From assembly GCF_006716645.1 (NCBI RefSeq), contig NZ_VFPL01000002.1, positions 248,001 to 312,000 on the forward strand: a DNA stretch of 64,000 nt, given 5' to 3'. Made by a program: the position numbers and the translations under genes. Below are positions 2,829 to 29,972 of this stretch, piece after piece (the first letter of the stretch is position 1; each line of letters opens with the position of its first letter). The DNA comes from Arcticibacter tournemirensis. GTDB lineage: Bacteria; Bacteroidota; Bacteroidia; Sphingobacteriales; Sphingobacteriaceae. The notes below the pieces were generated by a model. That model saw nothing but the letters and a program-made list of their open reading frames with translations. It ran no database searches and was not told the origin of the DNA.

Positions 2829-5800
2829 TTATTCTATACCCGCACCGTGACAGTTTTTATATTTTTTTCCACTTCCGCACGGACAAGGGTCGTTTCTTCC
2901 TATCTTCTGTTCATGCCTGACAGGCATCTGTTTCTGAAGTTCACGCGTATCCTCCATTGGCACTGCCCCGCCTTCACCTGCAACTGTAGCAAGTTGTGGT
3001 TTTGATACCTTTAGTTTTGACATATCCTGTTTAGGCTGAGGCCTCGCTTCGCGTACTTCTTCAGATTGCTGTACCGGAATACCTCCCTTAAACAGGAAGC
3101 TTACGATATCTTTATTAACAGAAACCAACATCTGCTTAAACAGGTTGAAGGCTTCCATTTTATAGATCACCAGGGGATCTTTCTGTTCGTAAACCGCGTT
3201 TTGCACCGACTGCTTTAATTCGTCCATCTCACGCAGATGTTCTTTCCATGCATCATCAATCAGCGCAAGAACAACTGTCTTTTCAAACGCCCTGGATACT
3301 TCACGGCCGTTGCTTTCTACTGCTTTCTTAAGATTAGCAGCCACCTGTATAGATCTCACACCATCAGTAAACGGAACAATAATATTTTCGATAAACTCCC
3401 CTCTTTCACTGAATACCTGTTTCAATACAGGAAGCGCCTGCTGCGATATTGCTTCATTTTTACGCTGATAATATTCAGTAACCTTATCGAAAACGAGATC
3501 GGTTAGTTTCGCGATAGAGTTATCGGCGAACGTCTTTTCGTCTATCTCTGAATCTACCGAAAACACCCGTATCACTTCCAACTGAAAGCCTTCAAAGTTT
3601 CCTGTCTCTTTATATTCAGTTACAATATCCTCGGCGGTATCATAGAAAGAATTGTTGAGATCGACTTCCAGGCGCTCGCCATACAACGCATTTCTGCGTT
3701 TAGCGTATACCACAGTCCTTTGCGAGTTCATCACGTCGTCGTACTCCAGCAAACGCTTACGTATACCAAAGTTGTTTTCCTCTACTTTCCTTTGAGCACG
3801 CTCAATAGAACGGGTGATCATAGAGTGCTGGATAACTTCGCCTTCTTCAATTCCCATCCGAAGCATGATATTGGCGATCCGCTCAGAACCAAATAAACGC
3901 ATCAGGTTATCTTCCAGGGACACAAAGAACTGTGACGAACCTGGATCACCCTGACGTCCGGCACGACCACGTAACTGACGGTCAACACGGCGGGACTCAT
4001 GTCGTTCAGTGCCTACGATTGCTAAACCACCTGCTTCCTTAACGTTAGGGCCAAGCTTTATGTCGGTACCACGACCTGCCATGTTCGTGGCTATCGTAAC
4101 TGTACCAGCCAAACCGGCTTCGGCAACAATATCTGCTTCCTTCTGGTGCAATTTGGCATTCAGCACATTGTGCTTAACCCCACGCAGTTTAAGCATACGA
4201 CTTAGCAGCTCAGAAATTTCAACAGACGTGGTACCTACCAGTACCGGTCGTCCTGCTTGGGTCAATGCCGTGATTTCCTCCACTACGGCATTGTATTTTT
4301 CACGCATGGTGCGATAAACTTTATCCTCCATGTCCTTACGCGAAGTAGGGACATTCGTTGGGATCTCTACAACATCCAGCTTATATATCTGCCATAACTC
4401 GCCAGCTTCCGTTACCGCGGTACCGGTCATCCCTGCAAGCTTATGATACATTCTGAAATAATTCTGAAGTGTAATCGTAGCATATGTTTGGGTAGCATCT
4501 TCTACCTTTACATTTTCCTTCGCTTCAATGGCCTGGTGCAGTCCGTCGGAGTAGCGGCGGCCATCCATAATACGACCTGTCTGCTCGTCCACAATCTTCA
4601 CCTTTCCCTCGTCAATAATATACTCGATATCTCTTTCAAAAAGAGTATAAGCCTTTAATAACTGGTTTACAGAGTGGATCCGCTCAGACTTCACCGAAAA
4701 ATCGCGCATCAATTCGTCCTTACGTGCAATTTTCTCCTCTGTTGAAAGAGCTGATTTCTCAATTTCAGCGATCTCAGTACCAACATCGGGCATTACAAAG
4801 AAACCCGGATCCTCCCCTGAAGCAGTGATCAGCTCAATTCCTTTTTCGGTAAGCTCTACCTGGTTATTCTTTTCATCAATAACAAAGAACAGCTCAGCAT
4901 CCGCCTTAGGCATTTCCTTGTTCTGATCCTGCATATGATAGTTCTCACTCTTCATAAGGAGCTGCTTCATTCCCGGCTCACTAAGAAATTTGATGAGAGC
5001 TTTATTCTTCGGTAACCCCCGGTGTGCGCGGAGTAAAGCGAGCCCGCCTTCAGTAGGCCCTGTTTTACCTTCTTTAATAAGTTTTTTAGCCTCATTCAGC
5101 ACATTGGTAACATAGTTTCTCTGAACATTTACCAGTCGTTCAATCCGCGGTTTCAGTTCGTAGAACTCATGCTCGTCGCCTTTTGGAATGGGTCCTGAAA
5201 TAATCAGAGGAGTACGGGCATCATCAATAAGTACAGAGTCAACCTCATCCACCATCGCGAAATGCAACTTCCGCTGTACCTGATTCTCAGGTGCAAGGGT
5301 CATATTATCACGAAGGTAGTCAAAGCCAAATTCGTTATTGGTACCGAAGGTAATGTCGGCAAGATAAGCATTCCTGCGCGCCTCAGAGTTCGGCTGATGC
5401 CTGTCGATACAATCGACTGTTAACCCATGAAACTCAAAAAGAGGGCCATTCCACTCCGAGTCACGTCGTGCAAGGTAATCATTTACCGTCACGATATGTA
5501 CACCCTGTCCGGCTAAAGCATTAAGATATGCAGGTAAGGTTCCAACGAGTGTTTTACCTTCCCCTGTTGCCATTTCGGAAATTTTACCCTGGTGCAATAC
5601 GATACCGCCGATCAGCTGAACATCATAATGCACCATATTCCAGGTAACTGTATTACCTGCAGCGGTCCATGTATTATGGTAGATCGCTTTATCCCCCTGA
5701 ATCACCACATTCGGTTTGCGCGATGCAAGTTCACGATCAGCCTGGGTAGCTGTAACTTCAATAGTTTTATTTTCGGTAAAGCGCCTCGCTGTATCTTTGA

Positions 5801-6140
5801 CTACGGCAAATGCTTCCGGCAGAATTTCCATCAGCACTTTTTCGAGCTCCTTATCACGCTCCTTACCTAATTTATCTATTTGATCATAGATATCTGTCTT
5901 ATTCTGTACTGATAATTCAGGATCTTCTGCCTTTGTCTTTAAGGAACTTACTTCTGCATCTATATCTGCAAGCGCTTCTTTAATCTTGTTTTTAAAGGTA
6001 ACAGTTCTCTCCCTTAATTCGTCATTGCTTATAGCAGCCAGCTTCGCATACTCGGCTTTGATTTGCTCAACCAACGGCTGAATTAGCTTTATATCTCGCT
6101 CAGATTTACTTCCGAATAATTTACTTAAAAATCCTAACAT
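2829..6140 (-). CDS. secA: Preprotein translocase ATPase SecA
   Basis: 1103 residues from the ATG at 6140. This ATPase motor drives unfolded proteins through SecYEG. Motifs: Walker [21 protein letters not shown]-like box [13 protein letters not shown], helicase motif VI region [10 protein letters not shown], and a C-terminal SEC-C zinc site [14 protein letters not shown] that usually contacts SecB or the ribosome. At over 1100 residues it is longer than the roughly 900 of E. coli SecA, as is usual in Bacteroidota. A start at 6170 is possible, but the family begins with [12 protein letters not shown], so 6140 is preferred. It is divergent from purD; a TAATTTTG -7 box lies about 75 bp upstream. 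Confidence 0.97.
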
Positions 6141-6216
6141 TGTTTGTTCAATAAAATTCCTTTTGCTCAATAACTACGCCACCCACCCTCGAAAGACAAT
6201 TTGGCATACAAGCGAT

Positions 6217-6224
6217 CAAAATTA
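6217..6224 (-). promoter_or_regulatory. Candidate -7 box of secA
   Basis: On the minus strand this reads TAATTTTG, a perfect match to the Bacteroidota -7 consensus TAnnTTTG. It would give a leader of about 70 nt before secA. No clear -33 TTTG is seen at the expected spacing. Confidence 0.5.
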
Positions 6225-6291
6225 GTAAATTAAATAGAGAATTCGGGAGTTGATAATAGAAAAGGAGACTATAATCGCAACGATTTAACAT

Positions 6292-6299
6292 TATCTTTG
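6292..6299 (+). promoter_or_regulatory. Candidate -7 box of purD, very close to its start
   Basis: TATCTTTG matches TAnnTTTG exactly and ends 5 nt before the purD ATG. A transcript started from it would have essentially no 5' leader. Confidence 0.5.
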
Positions 6300-6304
6300 C
6301 GCTT

Positions 6305-7576
6305 ATGAATATTCTTTTACTTGGTTCCGGCGGAAGAGAGAGCGCTTTTGCCTGGAAGATAACCCAAAGTCCTCTTTGCACTGCGTTGTTTATAGCGCCC
6401 GGAAATGCCGGCACCGGAGCCTACGGAACAAATGTAAACCTGAATGTTACTGATTTTCAGGGGATCGGAAATTTCGTATTACATAATGATATCAGTATGG
6501 TTGTCGTTGGCCCGGAAGAACCACTGGTAAAAGGGATTCATGATTATTTCCTCGCTGATGAGAAACTGAAAGCGATCCCGGTTATCGGCCCCGATCAGGA
6601 AGGAGCAAAGCTTGAAGGAAGCAAAAACTATTCGAAGGCCTTTATGCGCAGGCACTTCATTCCTACAGCTGCATCCGCTTCTTTTACAGAGCATTCTATT
6701 AACGAGGGTCTTGCATACCTTGAAACACAAAAGCTTCCCGTAGTTTTAAAAGCCGACGGACTAGCTGCCGGAAAAGGTGTGCTAATCTGCCAGACTCTTG
6801 AGGAAGCTCAGGCCGAGCTTATCGCTATGCTTGGGGGCAAGTTTGGCGAGGCCAGCAGCACGGTGGTAATTGAAGAGTTCATGAGCGGAATAGAACTGTC
6901 GGTATTTGTTCTCACCGACGGCCATTCGTACAAGATCCTTCCCGAAGCTAAAGATTATAAGCGCATTGGTGAAGGTGATACAGGGCTAAATACGGGCGGA
7001 ATGGGATCTATATCCCCTGTTCCTTTTGCAGACGAAGCGTTCATGCAAAAAGTAGAAAATGACATTATCAAACCTACCATAGGCGGCTTAAAAATCGACC
7101 AAATCCATTATAAAGGATTCATCTTCATTGGTTTGATGAACGTAAATGGAGAACCTTTCGTTATAGAATATAACGTTCGTATGGGTGATCCTGAAACTGA
7201 AAGCGTTATTCCGAGAATAGAGAGCGACTTTCTCAATCTTCTTTTAGGAGTAGCCCAGGAGAACCTTGCAGAAAAAGAGTTAAAGATATCTCCTAAAACT
7301 GCTGCTACGGTGATGCTTGTAGCCAGCGGATACCCGGGAGAGTATCTTAAAGGGAACCCTATCGCGGGACTCGACAATATCCGCGATTCTCATGTCTTCC
7401 AAGCCGGAACCGTTTCTGACGGCAGTGAGATAAAGACTGCCGGGGGCAGGGTATTGGCGGTTACTTCAGTTCAGGACACGATGTTCGATGCTGTACAGCA
7501 AGCCGTAGCAGATGCAGGACGTATTTATTATGATGGCCGTTATTTCAGAACAGATATTGGCTTCGACCTGTTGTAG
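6305..7576 (+). CDS. purD: Phosphoribosylamine-glycine ligase
   Basis: 423 residues, normal for PurD (GAR synthetase), which joins glycine to 5-phosphoribosylamine in the second step of purine synthesis, using ATP. It starts with the canonical MNILLLGSGGRESAFAWK, and contains the ATP-grasp signatures VLKADGLAAGKGV, EFMSGIELSVFVLTDG and GDTGLNTGGMGSISP, and the metal-binding segment NVRMGDPETE. It stands alone rather than in a pur operon. The ATG at 6305 sits 5 nt after a consensus -7 box, suggesting a leaderless or near-leaderless mRNA. A strong hairpin follows the stop. Confidence 0.97.
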   Translation: MNILLLGSGGRESAFAWKITQSPLCTALFIAPGNAGTGAYGTNVNLNVTDFQGIGNFVLHNDISMVVVGPEEPLVKGIHDYFLADEKLKAIPVIGPDQEGAKLEGSKNYSKAFMRRHFIPTAASASFTEHSINEGLAYLETQKLPVVLKADGLAAGKGVLICQTLEEAQAELIAMLGGKFGEASSTVVIEEFMSGIELSVFVLTDGHSYKILPEAKDYKRIGEGDTGLNTGGMGSISPVPFADEAFMQKVENDIIKPTIGGLKIDQIHYKGFIFIGLMNVNGEPFVIEYNVRMGDPETESVIPRIESDFLNLLLGVAQENLAEKELKISPKTAATVMLVASGYPGEYLKGNPIAGLDNIRDSHVFQAGTVSDGSEIKTAGGRVLAVTSVQDTMFDAVQQAVADAGRIYYDGRYFRTDIGFDLL

Positions 7577-7601
7577 CTGTTTATGTTAGCCATCGCATAT
7601 A

Positions 7602-7648
7602 GTCAAAGTCAAAAGCCGCAAATGAAATTTGCGGCTTTTGACTTTGAC
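7602..7648. terminator. Bidirectional terminator hairpin, 22-bp perfect stem
   Basis: Arms 7602-7623 and 7627-7648 are perfectly complementary around a 3-nt GAA loop; the arm contains AAAAGCCGCAAAT. It lies between the convergent purD and thioredoxin genes and carries A/T-rich ends on both strands, as expected for a shared terminator. Confidence 0.85.
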
Positions 7649-7679
7649 CTCTGAACTTTCAACTCTAAACTTTCAACTC

Positions 7680-8819
7680 TTAATTCAGTACTTCTGCGAG
7701 CTTGCGTTCCAGGTCTTCCCCACGAAGGTCCGTGGCAACGATCTTACCCTGAGGGTCAATTAAAAAGTTCTTTGGTATGCTCCTAACACCATACATTACA
7801 GCCACTTCATTTTGCCAAAACTTCAGGTCAGATACTTGAGTCCATGTCAGGCCGTCATCCTTAATCGCCTTTAACCATGCATCCTTCCCGTTTTGCCGGT
7901 CTAAAGAAATACCCAGAATGGTAAAGTTCTTGTCCTTATACTTGTTAAAAGCAGTTACTACATTCGGGTTTTCCTGGCGGCAAGGCCCGCACCACGAAGC
8001 CCAGAAATCCAGTAAAACATATTTTCCTTTGAAATCCGACAGTTTTACCGGCTTACCATCGGGGTCGTTCTGCGTAAAATCCATCGCCTGACTGCCGACA
8101 GCCGTTTTCTTCAAAGCCTCCATATTTTGAATCAGCGGCTTTAGCGACGCACTGCTTTTAAGAGCGGGAGAAAGACTGTTAATTAGAGATTCTATTTCCG
8201 CAGGATTCTGCGACTGTCCAGCCACGTTTCTCAAAGCGGTCAAACTAACATAACTCGAAGGATTATCCTGAATAAATTTCTTCAACACACCATTTTGTTC
8301 TTGCATCAGGGTTTCGTAGCGACCACGCAACGCCGTCATAAATTGTTCTGACTGCTTGCTCTCAGACGATGCAGCATTATACTCGCCGTTCAGGGCTGCC
8401 ATCTTACTTTCAACCGGCTTTAACTGAGCGCTGAGCTTTTTGTTCTCTGCATTCGTTTTACCAGTCACCGTAGCTTTCGATAAAGAATCGGTACCGGATA
8501 CTGTTACATCACCTTTTTCAATATAAAAGCGAAGCACATCCGGCTGGCTTTCCGGACGAACATTCTGCAAGCCTACTCCCTTGTTATCAAGCACCAAGAC
8601 TCCGGTAACCGGCTCGGAAACCGACCCTTTAAAAGAAAACGAACCGTCCTTCAGTATGGCTGAGTCGGTAACCTGCGTTTCCGGGTTAGTTGAATACAGT
8701 AAAAACACCTTCGCCGGAGCATTATATTTCCCTACTTTGCCTTTAACCATAAAAGCGCCGTTCTGTGCAAATAACATGGCAGGAAACACCGCCATTGCAA
8801 TTAATATTGTTCGTTTCAT
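7680..8819 (-). CDS. TlpA-like thioredoxin-fold protein with N-terminal DUF4369-like domain
   Basis: 379 residues. A signal peptide (MKRTILIAMAVFPAMLFAQ) sends it to the periplasm. Residues about 20-125 resemble the DUF4369 beta domain found in Bacteroidota thiol-disulfide proteins; a helical linker follows; the last 140 residues are an AhpC/TSA-type thioredoxin fold with FWASWCGPCRQENP, active cysteines C277 and C280, and the cis-Pro region RSIPKNFLIDP. The family reduces or isomerises disulfides in exported proteins or acts in cytochrome c maturation; the partner is unknown here. It is the only gene in its transcription unit. Confidence 0.9.
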   Translation of the reverse strand: MKRTILIAMAVFPAMLFAQNGAFMVKGKVGKYNAPAKVFLLYSTNPETQVTDSAILKDGSFSFKGSVSEPVTGVLVLDNKGVGLQNVRPESQPDVLRFYIEKGDVTVSGTDSLSKATVTGKTNAENKKLSAQLKPVESKMAALNGEYNAASSESKQSEQFMTALRGRYETLMQEQNGVLKKFIQDNPSSYVSLTALRNVAGQSQNPAEIESLINSLSPALKSSASLKPLIQNMEALKKTAVGSQAMDFTQNDPDGKPVKLSDFKGKYVLLDFWASWCGPCRQENPNVVTAFNKYKDKNFTILGISLDRQNGKDAWLKAIKDDGLTWTQVSDLKFWQNEVAVMYGVRSIPKNFLIDPQGKIVATDLRGEDLERKLAEVLN

Positions 8820-26497: not shown

Positions 26498-27382
26498 TTA
26501 AAGCTGAATATTGAGGAACAAGAGAAGATCTTTAACCGTAAGAATTCTATTGTCATCCTTCTCCGATATTTCCTTTGGCACAGGGCCTGTTAAGAATATA
26601 CTGTTATCAGGTAACAGACGCTGAAGTCGTTCATAGAAAGCTTGAAAATCGGTCGAATGGATTGAATTAGTCACCCCGGTAACTACATAATCGGGCCTGC
26701 AGATATCCATTACGGCTTCAAGACTTTCGAATGGAACAGCCTGACCGAGGTAGATGGTTTTGTAGCCGCGCGCCCTTAGTGCATAGTTATAAAAAAGCAG
26801 GCCGATTTCATGCAACTCATTCTCAGGTAAAAACAGCACTACCGTTTTTGTGTCTGATTGGCTGTCAATATCCAAAGCATCAGTTGCAGCTATTAGTTTT
26901 TGCCTGATCATATTTGAAAAGAAGTGCTCCTGTGCCGGATTAATAGACCCGGTTTGCCACATAATACCTATCCGCTCGAAGAAAGGAAAGATAAACTTAA
27001 TAATAGCCTTTTCAAATCCCACTTTTATGACCATAGACATGAAGGCATGGGTGAATCTTGTCTCATTCATTTCAATCAAACTCATCAAAAGGCTCTCGTT
27101 CAATCCTTCTGTATTGTCCTTCAGCAGCATAACTGCAGAGATATGATTTAATATTTCAGAAGGAGACATTTTTGATATTGCCGAAATCTTATACCCATTC
27201 TTATTAAGAAGACTGATGTTAAGCAATTGCTTTAAGTCCTCATTGGTGTAATACCTTATATTAGTACTTGTTCTGCTAGGTCTAATTATCCCGTAACGCT
27301 TTTCCCATATCCGAATTGTATGTGCTTTAACTCCTGAGAGTTTTTCAAGATCTCTGATTGAGTAATTCTCTATAATTTTCAT
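26498..27382 (-). CDS. MerR family regulator with B12-binding domain (CarH-like photoreceptor candidate)
   Basis: 294 residues. Residues 6-75 are a MerR winged helix (YSIRDLEKLSGVKAHTIRIW, then RRYGIIRPSRT-like wing with NIRYYTNEDL). A four-helix cap domain follows with the CarH signature W142-x9-E152-H153 (MWQTGSINPAQEH), then a Rossmann B12-binding domain with E189-x-H191-x2-G194 (ELHEIG). In CarH proteins AdoB12 bound this way gives a dark tetramer repressing carotenoid genes, and light breaks it up. The gene diverges from crtB/idi across a palindromic promoter region, the classical arrangement. B12 use is inferred from the motifs; photochemistry is untested. Confidence 0.88.
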   Translation of the reverse strand: MKIIENYSIRDLEKLSGVKAHTIRIWEKRYGIIRPSRTSTNIRYYTNEDLKQLLNISLLNKNGYKISAISKMSPSEILNHISAVMLLKDNTEGLNESLLMSLIEMNETRFTHAFMSMVIKVGFEKAIIKFIFPFFERIGIMWQTGSINPAQEHFFSNMIRQKLIAATDALDIDSQSDTKTVVLFLPENELHEIGLLFYNYALRARGYKTIYLGQAVPFESLEAVMDICRPDYVVTGVTNSIHSTDFQAFYERLQRLLPDNSIFLTGPVPKEISEKDDNRILTVKDLLLFLNIQL

Positions 27383-27575
27383 CTTATATTATGAGAGATA
27401 GCATCTCATCTCCAATTTGCCATCTTTGCCTTCTTTATTGCAAACCGCTAATCCTATCTATTCCTGTTTAACTATTGCACATTCAAATGTAAACAAATCC
27501 ATTATATTCTTTTAATAAGTAGTCCAAACAACCCAACTATGGTGTAAATAAGCGGATGCGAGTTTAACAGCTTAT

Positions 27576-27617
27576 GTATTTTGTTTAATGTTTTTATAAA
27601 AACCCTAAACAAAATAC
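27576..27617. promoter_or_regulatory. 42-bp near-perfect palindrome, candidate CarH-type operator
   Basis: The left 21 nt (starting GTATTTTGTTTA) and right 21 nt (ending TAAACAAAATAC) are inverted copies with only two mismatched pairs, around a TTTTTATAAAAA core. The right edge touches the TATATTTG -7 box of the crtB promoter, so a protein bound here would cover the -33 region. The adjoining MerR/B12 gene is the obvious binder. Confidence 0.7.
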
Positions 27618-27625
27618 TATATTTG
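27618..27625 (+). promoter_or_regulatory. -7 box of the crtB-idi promoter
   Basis: TATATTTG, exact TAnnTTTG match, directly after the palindrome. No TTTG is present at -33, consistent with a regulated promoter whose upstream element is replaced by an operator. Confidence 0.6.
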
Positions 27626-27794
27626 AATATTAGGATATAACGCACCTAAGAATGGAGTCTATAAGAATATAGTTTATAAGAAACAATAAAGGCCTGGAAT
27701 GACAGACAATACATATTTAATGGCTATAAGCGGCCATGATAAGGATACAGCCAGAACTGCTTCTTTATAGTTATCAACTACAAATATTGACCAG

Positions 27795-28622
27795 ATGAAA
27801 GCTCTTTTTGACGAGATCAGCGCTAGATGCAGCAAAATGACGACCAGGGCGTATAGTACCTCCTTTTCGCTTGGCATACGTTTTCTTTCCCGGGAGATTC
27901 ATGATCCTATTTATGCGATCTATGGCTTTGTAAGATTTGCAGACGAAATTGTCGATTCCTTTCATGGCTATCCGAAAGAACAATTGCTAAAAGACTTCCG
28001 GGAGCAAACATATACAGCTATCGATCTCGGCATTAGTCTGAATCCCATTTTGAACAGTTTCCAGCAAACTGTGCATAAATATGGGATTGAAAGGGAATTG
28101 ATCGATACTTTCCTTGACAGCATGGAAATGGATCTGCATCATAACTTCTATTCAAGGCATCTGTTCGAAAGATATATACTTGGCTCGGCGGAGGTGGTTG
28201 GACTGATGTGCCTGCGGGTTTTCTGTGATAAAAATGAAGCGTTGTATGAATCCCTGAAACATCCGGCAATGAAACTAGGCTCTGCATTTCAGAAAATTAA
28301 TTTTCTGCGCGATATAAAGGCCGACAGCGAAGAACTTGGCAGGCTATACTTTCCGCAGGTGAATATTAAGAACTTTACTCACTGCGATAAAATAAAAATT
28401 GAAAATGAAATAGCCGGAGATTTCAGGGAGGCCCTTGAAGGGATAAAAAGGCTTCCCAAAAGCGCACGGAGAGGAGTATACCTTGCTTACGCCTACTACC
28501 TGGTACTGTTTAATAAAATAAAACGAGTGCCTCCGCAGAAGATCATGACAGAACGGATCAGGGTTGCTAACAGTCACAAACTGGGGATTATGCTTCAAAC
28601 GATGGTGCTTCAAAGAATTTAA
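27795..28622 (+). CDS. crtB: Phytoene synthase
   Basis: 275 residues, squalene/phytoene synthase fold. The first Asp-rich motif is RFADEIVD and the second NFLRDIKAD; AYSTSFSLGIRFL near the start and GRLYFP are also family-typical. It condenses two geranylgeranyl diphosphates to phytoene, the first committed carotenoid step. The stop is 4 nt before idi, so the two are cotranscribed: idi supplies DMAPP for the same pathway. Unlike many Bacteroidota clusters there is no crtI, crtY or crtZ next to it. Confidence 0.92.
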   Translation: MKALFDEISARCSKMTTRAYSTSFSLGIRFLSREIHDPIYAIYGFVRFADEIVDSFHGYPKEQLLKDFREQTYTAIDLGISLNPILNSFQQTVHKYGIERELIDTFLDSMEMDLHHNFYSRHLFERYILGSAEVVGLMCLRVFCDKNEALYESLKHPAMKLGSAFQKINFLRDIKADSEELGRLYFPQVNIKNFTHCDKIKIENEIAGDFREALEGIKRLPKSARRGVYLAYAYYLVLFNKIKRVPPQKIMTERIRVANSHKLGIMLQTMVLQRI

Positions 28623-28626
28623 TGTT

Positions 28627-29178
28627 ATGACGGAAGCCCACAAGAACAGCAACGCTGATCAGGTTATCCTGGTAGATAGTTCAGACCAGCAGTTAGGTAA
28701 AATGGAGAAACTTGAGGCACACCGGCAAGGGAAGTTACACCGTGCATTTTCTGTATTTCTTTTGAACAATAACAATGAGATGCTTTTGCAGCAGCGTGCG
28801 CTGGGAAAGTATCACTCAGGAGGCCTGTGGACCAATGCCTGCTGTAGCCATCCCCGACCAGGCGAGTCAACTGACGATGCCGCCTTACGACGGCTGAGAG
28901 AAGAATTGGGGATATCCTGCCCATTGACAATGTCATTTTCCTTTCTATACCACGTGAGCCTGGATAAAGGAATGTTCGAGCATGAATACGACCATGTCTA
29001 TACCGGCCGCTTCTCAGGAACGCCGGATGTAAATCCGGAAGAAGTTGCAGACTGGAAATTCACATCTTTAGAAACCATTGATGATGATCTTGAAATAAGA
29101 CCCTATCTTTACACACACTGGTTCCACATTGCTTATAGAAGATTAAGAGAGCTGCCCGGCTTTACTAACAACCTATAA
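28627..29178 (+). CDS. idi: Isopentenyl-diphosphate delta-isomerase, type 1
   Basis: 183 residues from the ATG at 28627, 4 nt after the crtB stop; an upstream in-frame start at 28564 would overlap crtB and adds non-family residues. Nudix-type fold with the active Cys in TNACCSHPRPGE, the Nudix-like LRRLREELGI, and HEYDHVYTG carrying metal and catalytic residues. It isomerises IPP to DMAPP for isoprenoid chain growth. Coupling to crtB suggests it is induced with carotenoid synthesis. Confidence 0.95.
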   Translation: MTEAHKNSNADQVILVDSSDQQLGKMEKLEAHRQGKLHRAFSVFLLNNNNEMLLQQRALGKYHSGGLWTNACCSHPRPGESTDDAALRRLREELGISCPLTMSFSFLYHVSLDKGMFEHEYDHVYTGRFSGTPDVNPEEVADWKFTSLETIDDDLEIRPYLYTHWFHIAYRRLRELPGFTNNL

Positions 29179-29303
29179 ATTCAGCAAAGCGGAACCTTCA
29201 GATAAAGAAGTCCCACGTATAACATGGCACACCTTACCTGATTCGAGGGATACAAAACTTATAGGATCAAATACCGTTTAGTACATGAAGTGATTTTATT
29301 CAG

Positions 29304-29972
29304 ATGAAACCCTACATATATTTAACACTGTGCTTAATTTTCTTTTCCTGCGGACAAACGCGCAATAGTGAAGACAAGGCGGCTCTCGACACTGATTCAA
29401 TGACGGTTAAAACTGATTCAGTTCCAGCAAACTCGAATTCCGGGACAGTTAACTCTAATCCATTGTCGGTGGAAGAGATCAAACAGAGGTATGCTATTAT
29501 AAACGACAAGCTACAGCACGGGCTATTGGATTCTATATCTTTTAAGTATGACTGCAATCAGGAAAGAAACGGAACCATTACCTACTTTTCTGACAAAGGG
29601 CAACTAGCTATGATAAAGCATAGCTACAATGAATACAGCCATTTCTCTGCTGTTGACCTGTATTTCTTAAGTAACAGCACCCTGTTCTTTGCTCACTTTA
29701 AAGGAGTAAGCTGGAGCTTTGAATCAGGACAGGCAGCCGAAGGTGCAACTAAAGATGATATCACAGAACAGCGGTTGTACATAGTCAAAGAAAAACCGCT
29801 CCTTTGTCTGGAGAAAAAATATATAAAGAGGTCGAATTCCTCCAACAATCCAAGGCCAGAAGAGGTGCAGAGCAAAGAAGTGAAATGTAAATCTATTGAG
29901 CCGGTACTAAAAGACTTCCGCAAACTAATAGATTTTAAGGGCAGCACTCAACATGATTGTTTGGAAAAATAG
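29304..29972 (+). CDS. Lipoprotein of unknown function
   Basis: 222 residues. Signal peptide ending in lipobox FFSCG (Cys16), then a Ser/Thr/Asn-rich linker (NSNSGTVNSNPLSVEE) and a globular part with beta strands (GTITYFSDKGQLAMIKHSYN ... VDLYFLSNSTLFFAHFKGVSW). This recalls small uncharacterised Bacteroidota lipoproteins. It lies after idi but a 125-bp gap makes cotranscription doubtful. Confidence 0.7.
   Translation: MKPYIYLTLCLIFFSCGQTRNSEDKAALDTDSMTVKTDSVPANSNSGTVNSNPLSVEEIKQRYAIINDKLQHGLLDSISFKYDCNQERNGTITYFSDKGQLAMIKHSYNEYSHFSAVDLYFLSNSTLFFAHFKGVSWSFESGQAAEGATKDDITEQRLYIVKEKPLLCLEKKYIKRSNSSNNPRPEEVQSKEVKCKSIEPVLKDFRKLIDFKGSTQHDCLEK

Follow-up and report, generated by a model that had tools for sequence, protein, structure and literature searches.

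Does the long palindrome between a CarH-like regulator gene and a crtB-like gene in Arcticibacter tournemirensis serve as the operator of that regulator and, if so, is it an operator of the kind described for other CarH proteins? The locus lies in the window, which is the whole 64,000-nt stretch that was analysed (assembly GCF_006716645.1, contig NZ_VFPL01000002.1, positions 248,001-312,000 of the forward strand). Here, carH (26498..27382, - strand) encodes a 294-aa CarH-like regulator with a MerR DNA-binding domain and a B12-binding domain. It is divergent from a gene for a 275-aa crtB-like phytoene synthase (27795..28622, + strand; Pfam SQS_PSY, 7e-46), which is followed by idi, the gene for isopentenyl-diphosphate delta-isomerase (28627..29178, + strand; NCBIfam PRK03759, 170.3 bits, cut-off 127). 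The gap between the two divergent genes measures 412 bp.

In two papers, the CarH operators described consist of 11-bp direct repeats in tandem, with the form nnnnTnnACAn; Thermus has three of them and Bacillus four. Degenerate repeats serve too in several myxobacteria, and the reading of direct repeats sets CarH apart from MerR proteins, whose sites are palindromic (PMC9304148, PMC8156234). Among the literature matches listed, none dealt with a CarH operator from Bacteroidota. Light-induced carotenoids have been described in Chryseobacterium, where car or lit operon genes were reportedly not found (PMC7064467), and a MerR-family gene has been named in a flavobacterial carotenoid cluster (PMC11855829).

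Two candidate operators in one intergenic gap

The palindrome (27576..27617) consists of two arms, 27576-27596 and 27597-27617. The first-pass annotation had described 21-nt arms with two mismatches that run into a perfect -7 box, and both points were confirmed: 19/21 pairs are matched (90% complementary) without a loop, and the putative crtB -7 box TATATTTG that follows directly (27618..27625, + strand) is the gap's sole exact TAnnTTTG on the + strand. If this box is placed as in the promoters of Flavobacterium psychrophilum, where it spans -12 to -5 (PMC9723704), transcription of crtB would start near 27630 and the palindrome would cover about -54 to -13. At the -33 position of this promoter TTG is missing, the sequence at about 27594-27600 reading TTATAAA. 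The 42-bp extent given to the element holds for the palindrome itself and not for the part that relatives conserve, which is a core of only 30-31 bp. In the window this core, here called O1, is an exact TGTTTA-N18-TAAACA in front of crtB (27582..27611), a position that would suit the blocking of the crtB promoter.

A palindrome of this kind might be a coincidence of AT-rich sequence or a structural element such as a terminator or a cruciform, and the gap is indeed 69% A+T. Nevertheless, this explanation is hardly credible, given that the palindrome scores 16.0 against a mean of 6.7 and a maximum of 13.5 in dinucleotide shuffles of the gap (0/1000 as good) and that relatives conserve it with coordinated changes in its arms. 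A terminator at the palindrome was rejected, the gap's lone terminator-like match lying elsewhere (27707-27692, - strand); both genes read away from the palindrome, and Rfam returned nothing at the gathering threshold across 27200-29400. When loops of up to 4 nt are allowed, the palindrome is the second best of the window. The best is a near-perfect, terminator-like inverted repeat at 7602-7648.

The first-pass annotation overlooked a second site in the gap. This site, O2, is an exact TGTTTA-N19-TAAACA (27465..27495) over the likely carH promoter, and it contains the putative carH -7 box TACATTTG (27484..27491, - strand), the gap's sole exact TAnnTTTG on the - strand and likely the promoter box of carH. 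The centres of O1 and O2 are 116.5 bp apart. Exact pairs at N18/19 occurred in 0/5000 shuffles of the gap, and in the whole genome of 5,655,817 bases there are three, two of them in this gap and the third within a long open frame (reversed-pattern control 0). When up to 3/16 mismatches were accepted, 126 matches were counted in the genome versus 106 in the reversed control, so there is no clear excess that would indicate a wider regulon. Tandem 11-bp direct repeats were also looked for in the gap and rejected, as no same-strand TnnACA pair 11 bp apart is present.

The regulator and the light signature of CarH

The regulator matches Pfam MerR_1 (5e-18) and B12-binding_2 (4.5e-7) above their cut-offs and PF02310 below it (22.0 vs 32.1). 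Its nearest PDB sequences are 3whp (1.4e-19) and TtCarH 5c8d (1.7e-19), with W142, E152-H153 and H191 aligned. An AF2 model of the protein (pLDDT 84.8, pTM 0.78, from a 19-row alignment) found the TtCarH structures 5c8e and 5c8d as its top Foldseek matches. Against 5c8e, the DNA-bound form, the values were E 6e-15, 25% identity and TM 0.56-0.58, with an rmsd of 11.8 over both domains; structures of the B12 domain alone gave a TM of about 0.76.

The regulator had been credited with the full set of CarH motifs, and all but one are there: GxxW, Wx9EH (W142, E152-H153), ExHxxG (the axial H191, with G194) and GxxxP are present, but GxxH reads NxxH (N188). Measured against the light signature published for CarH, which comprises GxxW, EH, GxxH and GxxxP (PMC11796333), the protein has three of the four motifs. 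CarH model NF052513 is the best-scoring NCBIfam family, at 105.9 bits and thus under the curated cut-off of 400. As a CarH, the regulator remains below the score of the curated model, and it has Wx9EH, the axial His and the predicted fold. The genome also encodes a member of the cobalamin-adenosyltransferase family.

A possible second light input was noted near one of the related carH genes. In locus L218, a frame for a PAS-domain histidine kinase (4962-6569) carries GRNCRFLQ, presumably a LOV-type motif, and a response-regulator-like frame lies between it and carH (6937-7821).

The altered GxxH and the score below the CarH cut-off leave room for a regulator that binds the sites without light control of its own, either as a B12-independent or metabolite-sensing repressor or as the effector of another photoreceptor. 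The kinase frame of L218 agrees with this, and a short LOV protein reportedly acts through a class II LitR (PMC9758184). We regard this reading as unlikely. Among 164 aligned rows, in which the window appears twice, 162 retain W142, 159 E152, 156 H153, 154 H191 and 150 P217, whereas GxxH begins with G in 58 rows, with N in 56 and with D in 27, which indicates that this position varies freely. Moreover, the LOV pattern occurs in no frame of at least 100 aa in the window.

Linkage, spacing and coordinated changes among relatives

For the comparison, 201 genomes of the host family were searched, of which 124 matched at E 0.001, many through the MerR domain only; strong matches in G147 C10, G148, G128 and two G010 fragments were left out. 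Together with a phylum sample (the best 80 of 552 relatives) this gave 170 loci and 163 distinct upstream regions, 83 from the family and 80 from the phylum. Seven loci were dropped, two for want of a usable CarH start and five as duplicates of another row over the first 120 upstream bases, four of the latter being second copies of a locus already included.

In 26 of the 83 family loci carH and crtB are both in the sequence analysed, on the same strand in 22 and divergent in four, namely the window and the relatives L003, L004 and L009. The regulators of these three relatives are 61%, 58% and 48% identical to that of the window, respectively. The first-pass annotation proposed to check whether the palindrome is kept in relatives while the flanks vary, and this was found in all three: the gaps differ in length (182, 257 and 128 bp vs 412 bp in the window) and in flanks, and the equivalent of O1 is an exact N18 pair in L003 and L004 and an N17 pair with one mismatch in L009. 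By eye, the operator and the -7 box are equally far apart in the window and in L003 (TATGTTTG) and, with one mismatch in the box, in L004 (TAGGTTAG); L009 has no good -7 box at the corresponding place. Inspection by eye alone also suggested degenerate O2-like sites in L003 and L004, and showed an idi-like frame after crtB in all three.

Within the family, the element tracks the CarH-like genes that are linked to carotenoid genes. With up to 2/14 mismatches, the operator was found in 47/48 crt-linked and 1/35 unlinked CarH-like loci (Fisher 5.5e-21, only indicative since the rows are related and not independent), and with exact hexamers in 34/48 and 0/35. The sole linked miss is L009, with its N17 pair, and the sole unlinked match is L015, with two mismatches. 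Three loci (L208, L210, L213) had entered through a pattern search; without them, 44/45 crt-linked loci have the operator.

This tracking bears on the question of whether the palindrome is read by another transcription factor instead of the CarH-like protein encoded next to it. Some exact sites do lie near non-carotenoid genes, and the half-site could suit other MerR paralogues. Against this, the element follows crt-linked CarH-like genes almost completely in the family and occurs at carH's own promoter, its half-sites fit the published CarH TnnACA, and its coordinated variation is confined to nn, which makes a different reader highly improbable.

The spacing of the half-sites is constrained as well. 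Upstream of the family CarH-like genes there are 41 exact inverted hexamer pairs, 35 of them at N18 (25) or N19 (10), and everted pairs (12) and direct pairs (6 and 6) have no comparable spacing peak; in the phylum sample (best 80 of 552 relatives), 9/11 inverted pairs are at N18/19. Among the crt-linked loci, N18 was counted 29 times and N19 11 times with at most one mismatch, and any other spacing in N8-35 at most four times. At two mismatches the peak is less exclusive, with N8/9 (12 and 15 of the 48 loci), N22-24 (9-14) and N33 (9) counting as well; control spacings of N24/25 then gave 16/48 linked and 5/35 unlinked loci, and N13/14 gave 1/48 and 2/35. Three tandem 11-bp TnnACA repeats occurred in none of the 83 family or 80 phylum regions (best 80 of 552 relatives) and two tandem repeats in four of each, only exact TnnACA being counted. 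Two Pontibacter loci (L067, L074) have inverted TGTTTA/TAAACA upstream of carH at N11, perhaps another spacing class.

The arms were also found to change together. In the distant carHB clade, TGTCTA/TAGACA replaces the usual pair in L166, L176, L186 and L203, and TGTATA/TATACA does so in L196; in these five loci both arms are altered, solely at nn of TnnACA. A TGTnnA/TnnACA pair at N17-19 is present in 45/48 crt-linked loci of the family; it is symmetric in 39 and asymmetric in six, whereas shuffling of the right arms gave a mean of 31.0 symmetric pairs and never reached 39 (0/20000). If a locus offered more than one candidate pair, preference went to the symmetric one, a choice that matters in at most two loci. 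From the tree, we judge that at least two independent events of coordinated change took place, shared ancestry lowering the number. In 18 carHB-clade loci with N18, whose regulators are at least 53% identical to that of L189, the columns of the two arms have conservation values of 0.98 and 0.97, compared with 0.84 for the columns that separate the arms and 0.58 for the 45 nt upstream.

The element accompanies several gene arrangements. It precedes a divergent crtB in the window and in L003, L004 and L009; it precedes carH-crtB and touches the start codon in L170, L189 and L213, with idi next in L189; and it precedes carH and is repeated before crtI in L205, L207 and L208, and also in L040, a MAG labelled Chryseobacterium. 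These positions are relevant to the possibility that the regulator is an activator at crtB. The centre of O1 would be at about -33.5. The -33 TTG is missing, and a promoter that lacks this box would depend on a bound activator; activators are common among MerR proteins (PMC9478572). However, O2 extends over the -7 box and the start of carH, and the carHB-clade element touches the start codon, both repressor positions, whereas MerR activator sites sit between -35 and -10. In addition, the described CarH proteins are repressors (PMC8156234). Activation at crtB is thus very unlikely.

Two further loci have two operators each (L219:4076-4173, L111:2205-2291) upstream of a sigma-factor frame of the ECF kind, with sigma-70 regions 2 and 4, near carotenoid genes, which suggests a cascade through the sigma factor. 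In a quick tree of 162 regulator sequences (SH-aLRT), with the operator label set at no more than two mismatches and N17-19, the operator is present in 11/11 rows of the window's clade (support 95) and in 38/38 rows of the carHB clade (support 100), which lies far from it. Elsewhere in the tree the operator is scattered, and the label needs 16 changes. Outside the family (best 80 of 552 relatives), only 2/23 crt-linked loci have the element (L040, L111), a result by which phylum-wide generality was rejected, and unlinked loci have it in 17/57 cases at two mismatches and in 6/57 with exact hexamers. The linked loci outside the family and the scattered label together indicate that the element extends beyond one lineage without being universal in the phylum.

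The pattern TTTGTTTA-N17-19-TAAACAAA occurs in 108/400 genomes of the order versus 31 for the reversed control (counted from the listing). Of 30 pattern-match loci that were laid out, 11 have relatives of carH, crtB, crtI or the sigma gene and 19 do not. Exact N18 operator-like sites with differing interiors lie upstream of DUF892 (PF05974) frames in three genomes (L238:1995, L240:1973, L241:2038), and L234 has an exact site between a Ku frame and a frame that we take to be UbiB/ABC1-like. A one-mismatch operator is located downstream of carH and ahead of a response-regulator frame in L216 (9714-9745).

A probable inverted variant of the CarH operator

The first-pass annotation likened the site to the operators of Myxococcus and Thermus, a comparison that had to be revised, as those consist of tandem direct repeats and the element described here is an inverted TnnACA pair at N18/19. 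The resemblance to the CarH systems of Thermus thermophilus and Bacillus megaterium extends to the architecture, the predicted fold, Wx9EH and the axial His of the regulator, to the TnnACA half-site, to an operator over a promoter and to the linkage with carotenoid genes. TAAACA in the window and TAGACA and TATACA in relatives all fit the published half-site. Those systems have tandem, direct half-sites; here the half-sites are inverted, with 18-19 bp between them, and one gap holds two separate operators. For the CarA/CarH operator at the crt promoter of Myxococcus, which is read by the same DNA-binding family, an inverted repeat has been noted as well. That repeat is degenerate or missing in relatives in which the promoter continues to be bound, and the current view of the site is one of direct repeats (PMC9304148); here, unlike there, the inverted pair is conserved and its arms change together. 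The element shares two-fold symmetry and a MerR-type domain with classical MerR-family sites. Those sites lie between -35 and -10, but the centre of the element is close to -33 or on the -7 box, and its core measures 30-31 bp, compared with 21-22 bp for the sites of metal-resistance regulators (PMC5045206). Judged by sequence, regulator and sites would function together in the manner of a CarH repressor and its operator, and the operator would be a variant that differs from the CarH systems described in the cited papers.

It is likely, in our judgement, that the neighbouring CarH-like regulator uses O1 and O2 as its operators, each an inverted TnnACA (TAAACA) pair with 18-19 bp between the half-sites, and that they serve a repression released by light. 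The sequences show the two sites, their rarity, conservation, fixed spacing and coordinated arm changes, and their linkage to CarH-like and carotenoid genes; binding and repression are what we infer, and control by B12 and light is suggested by the protein only. In the dark, the AdoB12-bound oligomer would set one DNA-binding domain on each half-site. At O1 it would lie over the crtB-idi promoter, devoid of a -33 box, from about -48 to -19 and block RNA polymerase. At O2 it would lie over the carH promoter from about -16 to +15, the start of transcription being predicted near 27479 on the - strand, and result in autorepression. Light would break the cobalt-carbon bond and dissociate the oligomer, both genes would be expressed, and phytoene synthase and IPP isomerase would be raised above the supply from a second crtB-crtI pair.

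That second crtB, 53% identical to the one in the window, is on the genome's other contig (C1) next to a CrtI-family gene (432.5 bits vs a cut-off of 238.1). The pair, represented by L148 and L214, is without the operator at up to 2/14 mismatches in L148 and up to one in L214. The crtB of the window passes no NCBIfam cut-off and scores best, below cut-off, on HpnD, a presqualene diphosphate synthase (113.6 of 278.6 bits), so its phytoene product is assigned by context, crtB homologues adjoining crtI. All five congeners have a single crtB, 53-55% identical to that of the window, and in all five the CarH-like regulator and a second crtB are absent, which keeps the congeners out of the conservation check and indicates that the module is accessory in the genus. 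The module probably adds a phytoene synthase, which would be light-gated, and an IPP isomerase to a basal pathway.

Because described CarH proteins read direct repeats, an inverted site needs another arrangement of the DNA-binding domains. The chances seem about even that, in a Bacteroidota branch of CarH, an oligomer that senses light spans two TnnACA sites arranged as mirror images at a distance of 24-25 bp, and here maybe also loops O1 to O2 (116.5 bp being about 11 helical turns) so that both divergent promoters are shut. CarH has been called unusual among MerR proteins for its reading of direct repeats (PMC8156234). If the proposal is true, a clade that inverted a kept half-site would mean that the geometry of an operator can change without loss of the B12 light switch. 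The light control of carotenoids would then be predictable from sequence in part of the Bacteroidota, and gene control by green light would gain compact symmetric operators in a phylum that has a promoter type of its own.
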